In this document: in pieces, positions 16,519 through 38,318 of the stretch | Layout: each line of letters begins with the position of its first letter | How positions within the stretch are numbered: the stretch's first letter is position 1 | Virus record (IMG/VR): IMGVR_UViG_3300035438_001158 | Coordinates: 1-47,714 of that record | Reading direction: 5' to 3' (one strand) | Length of the DNA stretch: 47,714 bases | Source: a virus | Notes under the pieces: model-generated | Told to the model about the DNA's origin: nothing | Databases searched by the model: none | Seen by the model: the letters and a program-made list of their open reading frames with translations, nothing else | Program-made: the position numbers and the translations under genes

Positions 16519-17456
16519 AGTTTTAATCCTTGAACTTCTTCTACTGACATTTCCCCAACATCGTCGACAAGAGGCACAACGTGCCTCACATTAAACAGGC
16601 GACTTAGCCTATTACAATCTTTGCGACACTTGTCTCCAGCCTCATCTCGATCGAATACCGTAACCACATCCATCACTCCTGTCTTCTGGAGTAATAACTC
16701 TTGTGTATCAGACAACTTGCTGCCAAAGATTCCGACAACGTTTCTGATACCGGCCTGATGGAATCTGATCACGTCACCTTGGCCCTCTACTAGTATAAGC
16801 TTTCCGCTTTGACATATAGCCTGAAAAGCGAGCCAATATCCATATAGGTGCTCAGATTTCTTGAATCCCTTTTGATTCTTCCATTTGTGGGGGGCGTTGA
16901 TAAGGGTCCTACCCACACACCCAACCAAAAATTTCCCATTTACATCATAAACAGGAAATACGACCCTCTCATACATTTCCTTTGATGGGTCATTACATAC
17001 TCCTACGTCGAACTCGTCAAGGATTTGTTGAGAGAATCCTCTTTGTATATAAAAATCGGCAGGTCTAATAAGCTTCTGTCGTACCTCTTCTCTACTAGGT
17101 CCCATCTTCTTTACTGAGTCTCTCAACAGCAAATCATTGAAAGCATCAGAGATGTAGTCAATTCGCTCGATTCCGCAGAAAGTCGCAGCTAGATTGATCA
17201 CTTCAGTAAAAGAAATGTCAGCCTTGGTAGAGGCCAAACCTCTCAATAACCCGAGGATATCTCCGCCAAATTGTTTGTGGCATCCGGCAGTATTACAGAA
17301 CCACCTGCCACAATATTCAGAGGAAGTGTCATTGTTCACGTTGAAAGCTGTTGTGTTGTCCCCATTGTGGATGGGGCAATTACATACCAACAAATTGCCA
17401 GACCTATAAGGTTTGACCCCAAAGAAGTCGAGGATTTGGGGAATCTTAGCCTTCAT
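16515..17456 (-). CDS. DnaG-type DNA primase
   Basis: 313 residues from the ATG at 17456, which starts just before the helicase stop; a longer start, TTG at 17525, would overlap by 80 bases, and the shorter one places the zinc finger at the family-typical distance from the N-terminus. The zinc finger has C25, C27, H30, C54, C59 and H60 around the primase CHC2 region. The TOPRIM core follows: LILVEGQGDVIRF (catalytic Glu) and VVTVFDRDEAGD (DxD). It would synthesise RNA primers at the fork with the adjacent helicase. Confidence 0.9.
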   Translation of the reverse strand: MKAKIPQILDFFGVKPYRSGNLLVCNCPIHNGDNTTAFNVNNDTSSEYCGRWFCNTAGCHKQFGGDILGLLRGLASTKADISFTEVINLAATFCGIERIDYISDAFNDLLLRDSVKKMGPSREEVRQKLIRPADFYIQRGFSQQILDEFDVGVCNDPSKEMYERVVFPVYDVNGKFLVGCVGRTLINAPHKWKNQKGFKKSEHLYGYWLAFQAICQSGKLILVEGQGDVIRFHQAGIRNVVGIFGSKLSDTQELLLQKTGVMDVVTVFDRDEAGDKCRKDCNRLSRLFNVRHVVPLVDDVGEMSVEEVQGLKL

Positions 17457-19932
17457 CCCCGCTTTCAGGTTCTGGAGGTCTCTCTGGGAATTCTTTGCTT
17501 CTAGAAAGTCGTCTAACAGTGCCAATTTCTCTCATCCTTGCTAGTTCACCCTTCATTTCGAGACAGATATACCCATCGTCAGTCATTCCGGGGCCATGTC
17601 TTGAAAGTACTGGCACTAGTTTACGGTTGCCATTTCTGGGACCATCATCGGCAATTTCATCAATGGATTTTTCTTTTAGAATAGTAAACGATGTACACAA
17701 CCAGCCAATTCTATCAGACTGTGAGATAACATCTGCCGACTCTTTTTCGATTCCATCCCTATTTAACTGAACAAACGACAAACACGGCACGTCATGCTCT
17801 ACGCAGAAGTTGTGTAGCTTAGTTGCCTGAAAACCCATAGCTTGAAATTCTGCTACGTTCTGGGACAGGCCAGAAGAATCCATAAGCTTGAAATAGTCAT
17901 AGATTATCAAGCAGTCTTTGGTTCTGCCAGTTGGCTCGAACCCCACTTCCTTGAGGACCCACCTGCGAGCAATTGAAAGGATTTCGTCAAACCCTTTGCC
18001 AGAGACATTGATATAGAAATATGGAATAGATGCCAATTTATCTCTTGCTTCAACTATTGCGGCCCTCTTCATGGGATCTTTTTTGAAGTCCCCAGTCTTG
18101 ATCTCATTTATTGGAATACCACTAATGTTTGCCCATATTCTATTCCAATGGTCTTGCTCTGACATTTCAGTGTCTAGAACCAGTACAGGTAAGTTGAGCT
18201 TCCCGGAGACGTGTAATGCTACGTTGTCACAGAAGACCGATTTTCCACAATTATGAGTAACTATGTGATGATCCGTTAGGAACAAACCATCATCATTTGA
18301 AACCCTAATACATCTAGCATTATCTACAGCTACCTTCTCCACCCTTACAATTGATCTTTTTAGGTCTCCAATCTTCCTATTATTCGACAGATTGGCTTTT
18401 CTGCTAAGCTTAAACGGAACAATGTTATTAGGTAGTCGAACCTCACATCTAAAAGAGTCAAAAGATCTGCCAAGACAAGTAGTAACCTGAGCTTTGGGGG
18501 TCGCTATTCCTCCAAGTGATGTAACAATTTCACAGAGATCTTCAATCAATTGCTTAGAAGCAGAAGTAAAAGTATTTCTTGAGGTCTTTGACCTAGGATC
18601 TACAGTACAAGATCCATCAGTATCTAAGAGACCTCTTAGGATTTCTAGTCTAACTTCTTCTGAGTTGTACTTGTAGATGTCAGGAATGAATTTCGTGTAA
18701 CAATTATGCTTGAAAATTCCTATCTCTCGAAGTTTATCCTGAAAACCATTAATTCTATAAGATACACATTTCTTGCTAGGATCATTCTGATCTATCTTTA
18801 CTTCGTAACCAAGATCACTAAAGTAACCATTTACATAATCAATAATCTCCTGATCCATGCTGGTGTATGTGCATGTCTTTATCAATGATCCGTCGCCCAA
18901 TAGTACTCCAACGACATATGGATCTACTGGAACGCTTTGATGAGCGTATTTAATCGGGCTTGGTAGTCTCACATCCCACTTGTACTCTATCCCCTTGCTT
19001 GGGTCTCCAATGTAAAGATTTGCTGCTATATCCTTTGTGGATAATACACTACCACTTTTCTCGCTTATGCTTGTATACGGATATCTCTTGTAGACTTCCC
19101 ATAGATGATCTTCGCAGCAGTCTACAAAGCTTCCATCCCGAAAATGAACTCGGTAGATATCCTTGTCTTTAAAGTCGAAGACCTCTTCAACGATAGAATC
19201 TTCCATAAATGGGTGCGAGATCTTATCTCCAACCGACAGATTCTCTATCTTAACTGGCCCATTCTTTGTATAGACGAAAGACCCATATCGAAGGCTCTTA
19301 GTTCTAGCCCCGACCAAGTCAACGCACTTCCTTAGGAACCCGCCACCTATAGCCACATCATAGGATGGAAAACCGCTTGGTACTCCAACCTGTTTTGGCT
19401 CGTCTGACACCAGATACTCGAAGTAGTCCATACCTCCTTCACCGAGAAGTTTCGGCTTATTATCATCCTTCTTCATGTAGGAGATGGAGGCGTTCTGAAT
19501 TGGGGCCTCAGCCATGGCAACGATATCAGATAGAGACTCTTCTCCAGATACCTCATTGAGGCCCTTATAGGCCTCCTTTATGGTATCCTGAAGATGCCGG
19601 GCAAACTGTAGTCTGCGAATCTTCTTAGCATGTCCGGAAATTCCGGACAACTGGATAGGGGTAGACAGAACCCCATGGAAATGCTTCAGTACATCAGGCT
19701 TGTTGACATAGTCCCCAAGTGATAGATCTGTCGCCGCCGAAAGTAGCGATACAAAGTCTATTTTGTCAACTTTATTGATGGTGTGTTTTATACATTTGTA
19801 CATCACCTTATTAAAGTCTACAGTGAAAGTCCCATCTTCTAGGAAAGCCTCAACATCTAGATAGCAATCAATCCCATATGAGCAAATACCAGCAAGAACA
19901 GCTCGTTCACTAGCGACATTACTCAACTCCAT
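17446..19932 (-). CDS. dnaB: Replicative DnaB-type helicase interrupted by an in-frame intein
   Basis: 828 codons: an extein of 479 residues plus an intein of 349. The N-terminus is a DnaB-like domain; the RecA-fold core begins GVPSGFPSYDVAIGGGFLRKCVDLVGARTK. The Walker A motif reads GARTK-[intein]-CGKSVF, aligning with the xRPSxGKT of DnaB. Downstream are DTEMSEQDHWNRIW, LIIYDYFKLMD (Walker B) and QLNRDGIEK. Splicing is needed to rebuild the P-loop, so helicase activity depends on the intein. The C-terminus overlaps the primase gene, consistent with a coupled primase-helicase unit. Confidence 0.92.
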   Translation of the reverse strand: MELSNVASERAVLAGICSYGIDCYLDVEAFLEDGTFTVDFNKVMYKCIKHTINKVDKIDFVSLLSAATDLSLGDYVNKPDVLKHFHGVLSTPIQLSGISGHAKKIRRLQFARHLQDTIKEAYKGLNEVSGEESLSDIVAMAEAPIQNASISYMKKDDNKPKLLGEGGMDYFEYLVSDEPKQVGVPSGFPSYDVAIGGGFLRKCVDLVGARTKSLRYGSFVYTKNGPVKIENLSVGDKISHPFMEDSIVEEVFDFKDKDIYRVHFRDGSFVDCCEDHLWEVYKRYPYTSISEKSGSVLSTKDIAANLYIGDPSKGIEYKWDVRLPSPIKYAHQSVPVDPYVVGVLLGDGSLIKTCTYTSMDQEIIDYVNGYFSDLGYEVKIDQNDPSKKCVSYRINGFQDKLREIGIFKHNCYTKFIPDIYKYNSEEVRLEILRGLLDTDGSCTVDPRSKTSRNTFTSASKQLIEDLCEIVTSLGGIATPKAQVTTCLGRSFDSFRCEVRLPNNIVPFKLSRKANLSNNRKIGDLKRSIVRVEKVAVDNARCIRVSNDDGLFLTDHHIVTHNCGKSVFCDNVALHVSGKLNLPVLVLDTEMSEQDHWNRIWANISGIPINEIKTGDFKKDPMKRAAIVEARDKLASIPYFYINVSGKGFDEILSIARRWVLKEVGFEPTGRTKDCLIIYDYFKLMDSSGLSQNVAEFQAMGFQATKLHNFCVEHDVPCLSFVQLNRDGIEKESADVISQSDRIGWLCTSFTILKEKSIDEIADDGPRNGNRKLVPVLSRHGPGMTDDGYICLEMKGELARMREIGTVRRLSRSKEFPERPPEPESGDEG
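18250..19296 (-). mobile_element. LAGLIDADG-containing intein in the DnaB P-loop
   Basis: Residues 213-561 of the helicase ORF. Block A starts with Ser1 (SLRYGSFVYTKNG), block B is DCCEDHLWEV, the two LAGLIDADG helices are VVGVLLGDGSL (about 341-350) and LRGLLDTDGSC, and block G ends HHIVTHN followed by C+1 of the extein. All splicing residues and both endonuclease motifs (each ending in an Asp) appear intact, so it should both splice and home. The N-terminal nucleophile is Ser, not the more common Cys. Junction codons: ATT (complement AAT) at 18250-18252 encode the terminal Asn. Confidence 0.93.
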
Positions 19933-36054: not shown

Positions 36055-36329
36055 TTAGGGCTCCCAAAATATGAATCTAGAATTTTCCTGATCACCCAAG
36101 AAATCAGAATTTGAAAAAGCATGAATCCAAATGATCCATACATGCCTACGGCTTTATCTTCAAGATGCGATTCTGCCGAATCGCGGTCGGTAAAAGAAGA
36201 AAGATCCTCTTCAGCCAAAACTGAAATCTTCTCTATTCGTTTGCGAAGCCTATCAGCGTCTCGTTCGCCTCTTCTGCCCGGTTTGGCGGAATAGCCGAAC
36301 TCTTTACAGTATTCATCATACCAGTTCAC
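36051..36329 (-). CDS. Small protein with C-terminal membrane segment
   Basis: 92 residues. The first 55 are charged and helical (RGERDADRLRKRIEKISVL), and the C-terminus holds one hydrophobic helix, FGFMLFQILISWVIRKIL. A tail-anchored membrane protein of unknown function, possibly linked to the following structural genes. Confidence 0.6.
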   Translation of the reverse strand: MNWYDEYCKEFGYSAKPGRRGERDADRLRKRIEKISVLAEEDLSSFTDRDSAESHLEDKAVGMYGSFGFMLFQILISWVIRKILDSYFGSPK

Positions 36330-36609
36330 GCTTCACCTCCATATCTGGAGCATTATCTACACTGACCTTAAAGGACTTGTCTGTTATTGTAATTGATTCG
36401 ATAGTGGGCCGAACAGCATTCAAGAGCCGCAGCGGCCCCATCTTCGAAATAAATACTTGAACAGCAGGAGAACCAAACTTGATTACGACTTCGTCGTTGT
36501 GTGATGAAATCGTCAGATTGATCTCATCACCGCACTTGACGTTTACACCATCTGATACTTCAACCGTCTTATTCTTTACAAGCTGTTCAAAAAGATCTAT
36601 TAGATTCAT
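36316..36609 (-). CDS. Hypothetical protein
   Basis: 97 residues from the ATG at 36609, with GGAG and a 7-base spacer; the frame is open to 36621 but that start has poor context. Beta-rich, with a repeated TISSHN/SITITDKSF pattern and no known motif. The minus-one extension of the thioredoxin-like gene overlaps its first codons. Confidence 0.65.
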   Translation of the reverse strand: MNLIDLFEQLVKNKTVEVSDGVNVKCGDEINLTISSHNDEVVIKFGSPAVQVFISKMGPLRLLNAVRPTIESITITDKSFKVSVDNAPDMEVKRELV

Positions 36610-37416
36610 TGTATACTCCATTATGGTCGTCGTCGTGAATCGCTAATAGTTCTGTGTATGATAAATCGGCTAGGTTTGATATCCCGTGCTGTGATTGTAG
36701 GTGCTGAATTAATTGATTTCTATCAGGAGAGAGTGATCCGTTGAGCTTCCACTTGAGATGGCTGGCACGAGAGTACGAAGTATCTAGTTTTTTTTAGACC
36801 ACTTGATGTAACTATCGTATGACATAGACCCAGTATGAATCTTCTTTACTCCATCACTCTTGATGTAGAAGAAAGTAGGAATAGCTGTGTAGCTTAGGTT
36901 AAGCCTCTTAATTTCGGAAGATGCGGACTCATCATCAAGGTCAAGAACCTGAAAATCATTGAATGCTTCTGGGCCTACATCCCATCCAGCTTTCTTGTGT
37001 ACTTCGTTTCTTAGTCTGGTTACAAGATTCTTATCTACGCTTACACATGGAGAACAAACAGATGGCTGCGTCACCAGTACCGTGCGTGGGAATAGATCTG
37101 GTATTTCTTTCGCTGCCTTCTTGCATCCGCAATTCTTGTCAGAGTTTTTGCATGGACAGTCTGTCAGAGAAGTCCCACCATCATATGATACTTTCCCGTT
37201 GACACACTTGCATTCATCTGTCACCGGGGTTGGTGGGGTTGGGACCGGAACTGGCACATCTGGTGTAGCTTCCTTGCCGGGAAGCATCGCCAGAGCACCA
37301 GCAATTCCATATGCTTCAAAGTCTTCGGCAGATACGTCCGCAGAGACTACTGAAGGACCTGAGGAATTTGGCAGAAGCATGAGTATTATGATTATGACGA
37401 TCAATATATTTTTCAT
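36587..37416 (-). CDS. Secreted thioredoxin-like protein with putative programmed minus-one frameshift extension
   Basis: The zero-frame product (stop 36784-36786) has 210 residues: an N-terminal signal helix, a Pro-rich linker, a Cys-rich segment (C69 to C98), then a thioredoxin-like fold with CSPC at 121-124 and cis-Pro P180. The stop is preceded by A-AAA-AAC in an A8 run; slipping by -1 opens 66 further codons to 36587, ending after LLAIHDDDHNG. The combined product would have about 276 residues. The extension was found by reading the frame, and its codons look coding, but the slippage (or a sequencing indel, or polymerase slippage) is not proven. Redox role in the envelope is inferred from the CxxC and signal. 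Confidence 0.6.
36784..37416 (-). CDS. Secreted thioredoxin-like protein (zero-frame product)
   Basis: 210 residues. The first 25 residues form a signal anchor (ILIVIIIILMLLP). Residues 50-64 are Val/Pro repeats. Residues 69-98 carry CKCVNG, CPC and CGCKK, a small metal- or disulfide-binding segment. The thioredoxin-like fold follows, with PSVCSPCVS as the active CxxC and AIPTFFYIKSDG holding the cis-Pro. It would act outside the cytoplasm or at the membrane, probably in disulfide exchange. The gene is followed by an A8 homopolymer that may extend it (see the frameshift product). Confidence 0.8.
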   Translation of the reverse strand: MKNILIVIIIILMLLPNSSGPSVVSADVSAEDFEAYGIAGALAMLPGKEATPDVPVPVPTPPTPVTDECKCVNGKVSYDGGTSLTDCPCKNSDKNCGCKKAAKEIPDLFPRTVLVTQPSVCSPCVSVDKNLVTRLRNEVHKKAGWDVGPEAFNDFQVLDLDDESASSEIKRLNLSYTAIPTFFYIKSDGVKKIHTGSMSYDSYIKWSKKN

Positions 37417-37424
37417 TTGGTATC

Positions 37425-38318
37425 CTACCAGCTCACATTTGTATTGACTGGCTTCTTGTAGCCGTTAAATCCACCAATTGACCACCCATCGCCATTTTTC
37501 ATCATCTTGTCTATGACTTCGGCGTCAACCCAGAAACACCCATCTGGTTGATTGAGTTTACGTTTGCGAATCTTGAGCCAGCTAAGAGGCCAAGTGTTAG
37601 ATATCATACACCCTTTTCTTTTACTGTCGTCATCTACTGCAATAACAGATAGGGCGTGCTGCCAAGTGGTATTTTGTTTACAGAAACCCTCTTCATCGGT
37701 TTCGCTGGCAAAACCATAAGATGAGCCGATTTCAATAGGATATCCATTTACAATACTGTCTCTTGCTTCTTCATAAGATTTGACTCTAGAAAAGATTGAA
37801 ACAGTGTGATCTTTAGAGATATTTTCTAGAGTTTTAGGGAAGCCAGATCCAGTACCCCATTTGCGGCATCTATCTACAGAGTACTCCGTTAGATCAATAG
37901 CTCCATACTTCTGTTTTAGTAGAGTACCATATTCGTTGATATATTTAATCTGATGGGCTACAAGAGCACCATCTCCTCTTATTCTATTGCCACCTATTAC
38001 GATTCTGGCACCATAGTATAGTGGCTCTATACTAGTCCACCCCTTCAGAACTTCTCTTTCTCCGTTGGCTATCTCTGTAGCCATAAGGGTATTTACTATT
38101 AATGATGCTGATGCACTAACACAGCTACCTATATTACCCTGATTCACGTAGTAGAAACTAGAACCAGCTTTGGTATAGTTATCATGCAGACAAGCTATTT
38201 TACCTTTGCCAGTGCCTGTAAGAAAAGACGCTACTGATCCGAATACACCGAATTCAGATTCAACAGCGTCTACTTCTTCTGGTAGGTCAACCCAACCAGA
38301 AATGTTATAAGTTTCCAT
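37425..38318 (-). CDS. Papain-like (C1A-type) cysteine peptidase
   Basis: 297 residues. The order of catalytic residues matches papain: Q60 and C66 in NQGNIGSCVSASAS, H221 in TWQHALSVIAVDDD, and N241 in CMISNTWPLSW. No signal peptide is visible. The 60-residue N-terminal part is short for a classical propeptide, so it may be an active-as-made enzyme or one used in virion processing or lysis. A cysteine peptidase of this type is unusual in a phage. It ends 9 bases before the thioredoxin-like start, so the two form one unit. Confidence 0.8.
   Translation of the reverse strand: METYNISGWVDLPEEVDAVESEFGVFGSVASFLTGTGKGKIACLHDNYTKAGSSFYYVNQGNIGSCVSASASLIVNTLMATEIANGEREVLKGWTSIEPLYYGARIVIGGNRIRGDGALVAHQIKYINEYGTLLKQKYGAIDLTEYSVDRCRKWGTGSGFPKTLENISKDHTVSIFSRVKSYEEARDSIVNGYPIEIGSSYGFASETDEEGFCKQNTTWQHALSVIAVDDDSKRKGCMISNTWPLSWLKIRKRKLNQPDGCFWVDAEVIDKMMKNGDGWSIGGFNGYKKPVNTNVSW

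Follow-up and report, generated by a model that had tools for sequence, protein, structure and literature searches.

We propose, with a probability of about 0.82, that a minus-strand gene of the viral record IMGVR_UViG_3300035438_001158 is read by programmed −1 recoding, which would give two length forms of a secreted thioredoxin-like protein. In the proposed scheme most ribosomes would stop directly after the slippery sequence A_AAA_AAC and release a complete short protein, and a fraction of translation events would shift frame on the run of eight As (A8) and thereby add a C-terminal domain of 66 residues. The slip site and the frame downstream of it are conserved under purifying selection in four contigs, and both planctomycete bacteria and other viruses encode the same two domains in a single frame.

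The features of the gene and its surroundings in the window, i.e., the whole stretch of 47,714 nucleotides that was analyzed, are listed in the table. A first-pass annotation of this DNA had described a zero frame ending at a slippery A_AAA_AAC inside an A8 run, and a −1 shift that opens 66 codons without a start codon; the sequence agrees with both statements, the zero-frame stop standing directly after the heptamer and ATG, GTG and TTG all being absent from the −1 frame of the window. In the open reading frame (ORF) listing, the −1 ORF begins just two codons upstream of CTA, the first codon of the extension. Since a −1-frame TAA abuts the A8 on its 5′ side and the zero-frame stop lies on its 3′ side, the frame can change solely on this run, and an in-frame heptamer of the X_XXY_YYZ type is present where both frames overlap. 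Neither strand of the window (47.7 kb) has another run of eight or more As, with 4.56 expected from shuffled sequences, a modest depletion. Three other contigs repeat the heptamer, the run of exactly eight As, the adjoining stop and the extension, so that the site goes beyond chance.

Table. Coordinates of the putatively recoded gene, its proposed slip site and its neighbours in the window.
Feature	Position	Strand	Remarks
Zero-frame ORF, 210 aa	37416-36784	minus	end reads TGG TCT AAA AAA AAC TAG
A8 run	36795-36788	minus	holds the slippery heptamer
Slippery heptamer A_AAA_AAC	36793-36787	minus	identical in four of four contigs
Zero-frame stop TAG, directly 3′ of the heptamer	36786-36784	minus	TGA in three relatives
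−1-frame stop TAA, directly 5′ of the A run	36796-36794	minus	same in relatives
−1-frame extension, 66 sense codons and TGA (36589-36587)	36787-36590	minus	C-terminal domain, no name
Next gene	36316..36621	minus	GGAG and ATG (36621 or 36609) overlap the 3′ end of the extension
Upstream neighbour, 297 aa, probable papain/C39-like cysteine peptidase	37425..38318	minus	BLASTP, weak Pfam resemblance

Peptide-seeded scans revealed three IMG/VR contigs that encode relatives of both halves of the gene, and these direct scans returned nothing beyond them; a tblastn search against 50,697 phage records gave no significant match. All three relatives keep TGGTCTAAAAAAAAC followed by a zero-frame stop, which is TGA there and TAG in the window. 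The extension, read in the −1 frame of the relatives, has 76-80% amino acid identity to that of the window, and the main ORF of the relatives is 66-83% identical. For the window and its three relatives, dN/dS in the −1 frame amounts to 0.09-0.16, with dS near 1 or more across the compared contigs; the other frames of the same stretch contain 4-10 stops, and none of 20,000 random-substitution simulations reached the observed amino acid identity of the extension. Two of the relatives, L003 and L004, have identical extensions and differing main domains. The independent lineages number about three rather than four, since these two contigs are close to each other. According to the first-pass annotation, the frameshift would have to be given up if the extension occurred in no homologue and in no detected peptide, or if raw reads showed A7 or A9; the relatives do carry the extension, and the four assemblies compared all have A8.

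A search with a profile of the extension identified a protein from a planctomycete metagenome-assembled genome (L131), in which ...NHWSVEGDWNPSKEKVIRHLHGENHL...WSYEEVRSLHDDLHE comes after a thioredoxin-like domain without a change of frame. Within the order to which that genome belongs, the domain is present in 35 of 170 genomes, one copy per genome and always in an open frame, in proteins of 249-374 residues; a thioredoxin-like region lies upstream of it in the order members whose proteins were read out. When a profile of the fused phage protein was compared with the planctomycete set, both halves aligned in order (97.5% probability, E 6e-12; 26% identity over 148 columns). Motif-based scans added ten further viral contigs with the domain, whereas a scan of viral contigs with a planctomycete-derived alignment had no match. 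Behind a thioredoxin-like domain, in one frame, it occurs in L195-L200, L234 and L235; in L194 and L201 it sits on other proteins. L235 aligns with the fused phage profile over both halves in order (98.1% probability, E 1.3e-13) and matches each of the two window frames by BLASTP (E 3e-5 and 6e-6). At the profile level the main ORF likewise matches single-frame proteins of planctomycetes and viruses, and most of the homologues found carry the domain at the C-terminal end of a longer secreted protein. Based on these single-frame relatives, which make the fused form, the split is limited, among what was found, to the clade of the window. The first-pass annotation had pointed to thioredoxin-like proteins of planctomycetes with C-terminal domains of this kind, and the searches bear this out; single-frame homologues, for which it had suggested a database search, were found in planctomycetes and viruses alike.

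Genome matches at E ~0.005-0.1 were inspected and discarded as chance or unrelated. The phylum-wide search (with the query labelled A8) gave a match in 1/392, fewer than the narrower searches, so pre-filtering limits its sensitivity; in the phylum of G015 nothing was found, an outcome without weight because that search had no positive control. Several planctomycete sequences were recorded separately. L226 and L228 are small secreted proteins with little beyond the C-terminal domain (W.V.GDW.PT...HLRDAHG...LHDNDHN), and in L227, L229 and L230 the domain is found on another protein family, with LHSDDHE replacing LHDDLHE. A short recurrent stretch, SHQKWIINGSSFPARN or similar, occurs in several planctomycete genomes (L138, L140-L142), once with a stop; this is probably a non-coding repeat with a fortuitous resemblance to the extension.

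The N-terminus of the main protein is hydrophobic and looks like a signal peptide; the protein also has a cysteine-rich segment and a putative thioredoxin-like domain with CSPC and IPTFFY. A CxxC motif (CSPC or CPPC) and IP[TS]FFY, corresponding to the CxxC and cis-proline of thioredoxins, are kept in all four contigs. Thioredoxin_2 (Pfam) matches three of the four members weakly (best E 0.005), with the protein of the window itself unmatched, and an AlphaFold model has a pLDDT of 37; the name thioredoxin-like is used here for a predicted fold, based on the CxxC and IP motifs, the weak Pfam matches and profile homology to similar proteins. The cysteine-rich segment CKCVNGKVSYDGGTSLTDCPCKNSDKNCGCKK (window 37110-37230, minus strand) is strongly conserved in the four contigs and is possibly metal binding or disulfide-rich.

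As for the extension, the first-pass annotation had judged that it looks like a real domain, and the conserved −1 frame together with the single-frame homologues supports this. In the family alignment a near-invariant W, an invariant G, and HL, H, L and H-x3-H are kept throughout viral and planctomycete members. Modeled alone, the extension forms three helices (mean pLDDT 74), and its four histidines, conserved family-wide, lie on two predicted helices, which suggests putative metal binding; it is probably a binding or metal-coordinating module. Searches of the extension against Pfam, PHROGs and NCBIfam gave no significant match, and structure searches with its model gave no usable one. De novo TIM-barrel matches to A5 were taken as irrelevant and composition-driven, and metallothionein and ENT matches were non-significant. 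As far as sequence comparison can tell, the extension is a real domain that is unnamed so far.

We envisage that the ancestor was probably a single-frame thioredoxin-like protein with the domain, as in planctomycetes and other viruses, and that in the viral clade of the window the domain junction would have turned into a slip site, which was then kept, so that two length forms are made. On the ribosomal route, tandem slippage in the P and A sites would give ...WSKKN-LDTSYS...; with an extra A in the mRNA the product would be ...WSKKK-LDTSYS..., and the two products differ solely at the junction residue, N versus K. Of these routes we prefer ribosomal slippage on A_AAA_AAC (about 60:40). Downstream structure or an upstream Shine-Dalgarno (SD)-like sequence is a usual, not a strict, criterion for −1 frameshifting. 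Folding downstream of the slip site is not unusual (z-scores +1.4 to -1.8), a consensus structure has changes on both sides at one pair only and no significant covariation, and none of the SD-like motifs listed in PMC4066793 is found upstream of the slip site. One relative has a hairpin, GAGTACTACGTACTC, just 3′ of the site, and two others have it as a GU variant; because the window breaks this hairpin and it starts too near to the site, we do not regard it as a stimulator. A_AAA_AAC is inefficient in E. coli compared with A_AAA_AAG (PMC5009743, PMC4066793). It is nevertheless among the commoner heptamers of insertion sequence (IS) elements, which in the judgement of the same study very likely employ low-efficiency A_AA.A_AA.C sites for programmed frameshifting, and for an IS cluster that has A_AAA_AAC and proven frameshifting the stimulator is not established (PMC4066793). 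The lack of a visible stimulator is not disqualifying, because a proven site of that kind exists.

Transcriptional slippage, likewise raised in the first-pass annotation, would mean that RNA polymerase copies the A8 with one A too many (or two too few) and that ordinary translation of this mRNA yields the fusion. It is an alternative within recoding whose weight overlaps with that of the main reading, and we regard it as a possible but less probable route. It needs no stimulatory RNA structure, and none is seen; the A8 is kept in all four contigs, and functional slippage is documented on A/T runs, including IS elements with nine or eight As (Baranov et al. 2005; PMC1088944). Selection against slippage has, however, been seen at length nine in a large share of genomes, and because the threshold lies near nine, eight As are borderline (PMC1088944). 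Moreover, the C that follows the run and completes A_AAA_AAC is also invariant, although this route has no need of it. The tract could instead toggle within the viral population, the gene being split at A8 and fused at A9. Runs of a single base are hypermutable, and with nine As the ORF would be continuous, but a switching tract should show an A9 consensus in some assemblies and all four have A8; we consider such phase variation unlikely.

The extension might also be translated on its own, by ribosomes that reinitiate past the zero-frame stop at a start codon outside the standard set; the first −1 codon is CTG in the relatives, but the window has CTA there and its frame lacks ATG, GTG and TTG, and in most homologues found the domain is C-terminal on a longer secreted protein, which leaves reinitiation decidedly improbable. 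A homopolymer sequencing or assembly error in a gene that is truly in one frame, an alternative already raised in the first-pass annotation, would be plausible at an A8 in metagenomic contigs; the identical A8 in four separate assemblies, followed by two different zero-frame stops, TAG and TGA, makes it very unlikely. The existence of single-frame relatives would fit a recent pseudogene that lost the domain through a frameshift and is now decaying. Decay is, however, very unlikely as well: over a divergence with dS near 1 or more the −1 frame is under purifying selection, which is not expected of a pseudogene in decay. The identical extensions of L003 and L004 despite their different main domains also speak against it. 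Programmed −1 recoding thus remains our preferred reading.

The neighbourhood of the putatively recoded gene hints at a role at the cell envelope. The next gene is 82-87% conserved in three relatives. The upstream neighbour occupies the same position in the relatives; its product resembles cysteine peptidases weakly, below the Pfam cut-off, and matches the gene upstream of the single-frame homologue of L234 by BLASTP (E 9e-10). The domain protein of L194 has a Peptidase_C1 next to it (E 7.6e-6), and that of L235 a Peptidase_M10 with a peptidoglycan-binding domain. Taken together, these neighbours in the window, L234, L194 and L235 mark peptidase and secreted domain protein as a recurring pair, which suggests a role in envelope attack or lysis. 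The thioredoxin-like protein and the adjacent peptidase would probably act together in the envelope of the host, with disulfides as the putative target of the thioredoxin-like part and localization as the putative task of the C-terminal domain. Judging from the distribution of the domain, the virus probably infects planctomycete bacteria. Our tentative proposal, to which we would give slightly less than an even chance, is that the clade placed a slip site without detectable stimulator exactly at the domain border, and that recoding sets the ratio of free to domain-bearing oxidoreductase in an attack on the planctomycete envelope. Elsewhere in the window, a DnaB-like helicase ORF of 828 aa (17446-19932, minus strand) has an apparent intein-like insertion between CVDLVGARTKS and HNCGKSVFCDN.

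Frameshifting by −1 is already known, and what is new here is the unusual target and the previously unnamed domain. The target is unusual because tail chaperones dominate annotated phage frameshifts and no thioredoxin-like case was found: among the 2476 joined frameshift genes of the SEA-PHAGES set that underlies PRFect, 2397 code for tail chaperones, and 79 are listed as hypothetical (PMC10885494). Thioredoxin is unmentioned in the searched text of four recoding papers (PMC5009743, PMC3711429, PMC4066793, PMC10885494), and a small set of titles and abstracts combining recoding and thioredoxin subjects contained no thioredoxin-like frameshift case. The comparative evidence backs a frameshift in a secreted protein, beyond tail chaperones. 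Gene calling by start and stop codons misses the domain as an ORF, and an undescribed domain common to planctomycetes and viruses, beside viral peptidase genes, offers a lead on how planctomycete envelopes are breached.

The phage tail assembly chaperone of the lambda G/GT type is alike in being a phage gene with a slippery heptamer at which some of the ribosomes change frame and append a C-terminal domain, and the archaeal virus HCTV-2 uses A_AAA_AAC itself for its tail assembly chaperone frameshift (PMC5009743); unlike these, the window encodes a predicted secreted thioredoxin-like protein and not a tail gene. The A_AAA_AAC and A_AAA_AAG sites of IS elements are of the same slip-site class, but frameshifting there yields transposition proteins, and the gene in the window has no link to transposition. 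The planctomycete proteins (L131 and relatives) have the same two domains in the same order; they differ in being encoded in one frame, so that a slip site is unneeded, and in the usual LHDDLHE in place of the IHDDDHNG of the window. The viral single-frame versions (L195-L200, L234 and L235) combine a secreted thioredoxin-like protein with the same domain and, where checked, have a peptidase-like gene directly upstream. They differ in their single frame, and their upstream peptidase varies with the virus between a papain-like enzyme and an M10-type metallopeptidase. The single-frame proteins of bacteria and other viruses serve as natural controls, so that the purpose of the two lengths is directly testable.
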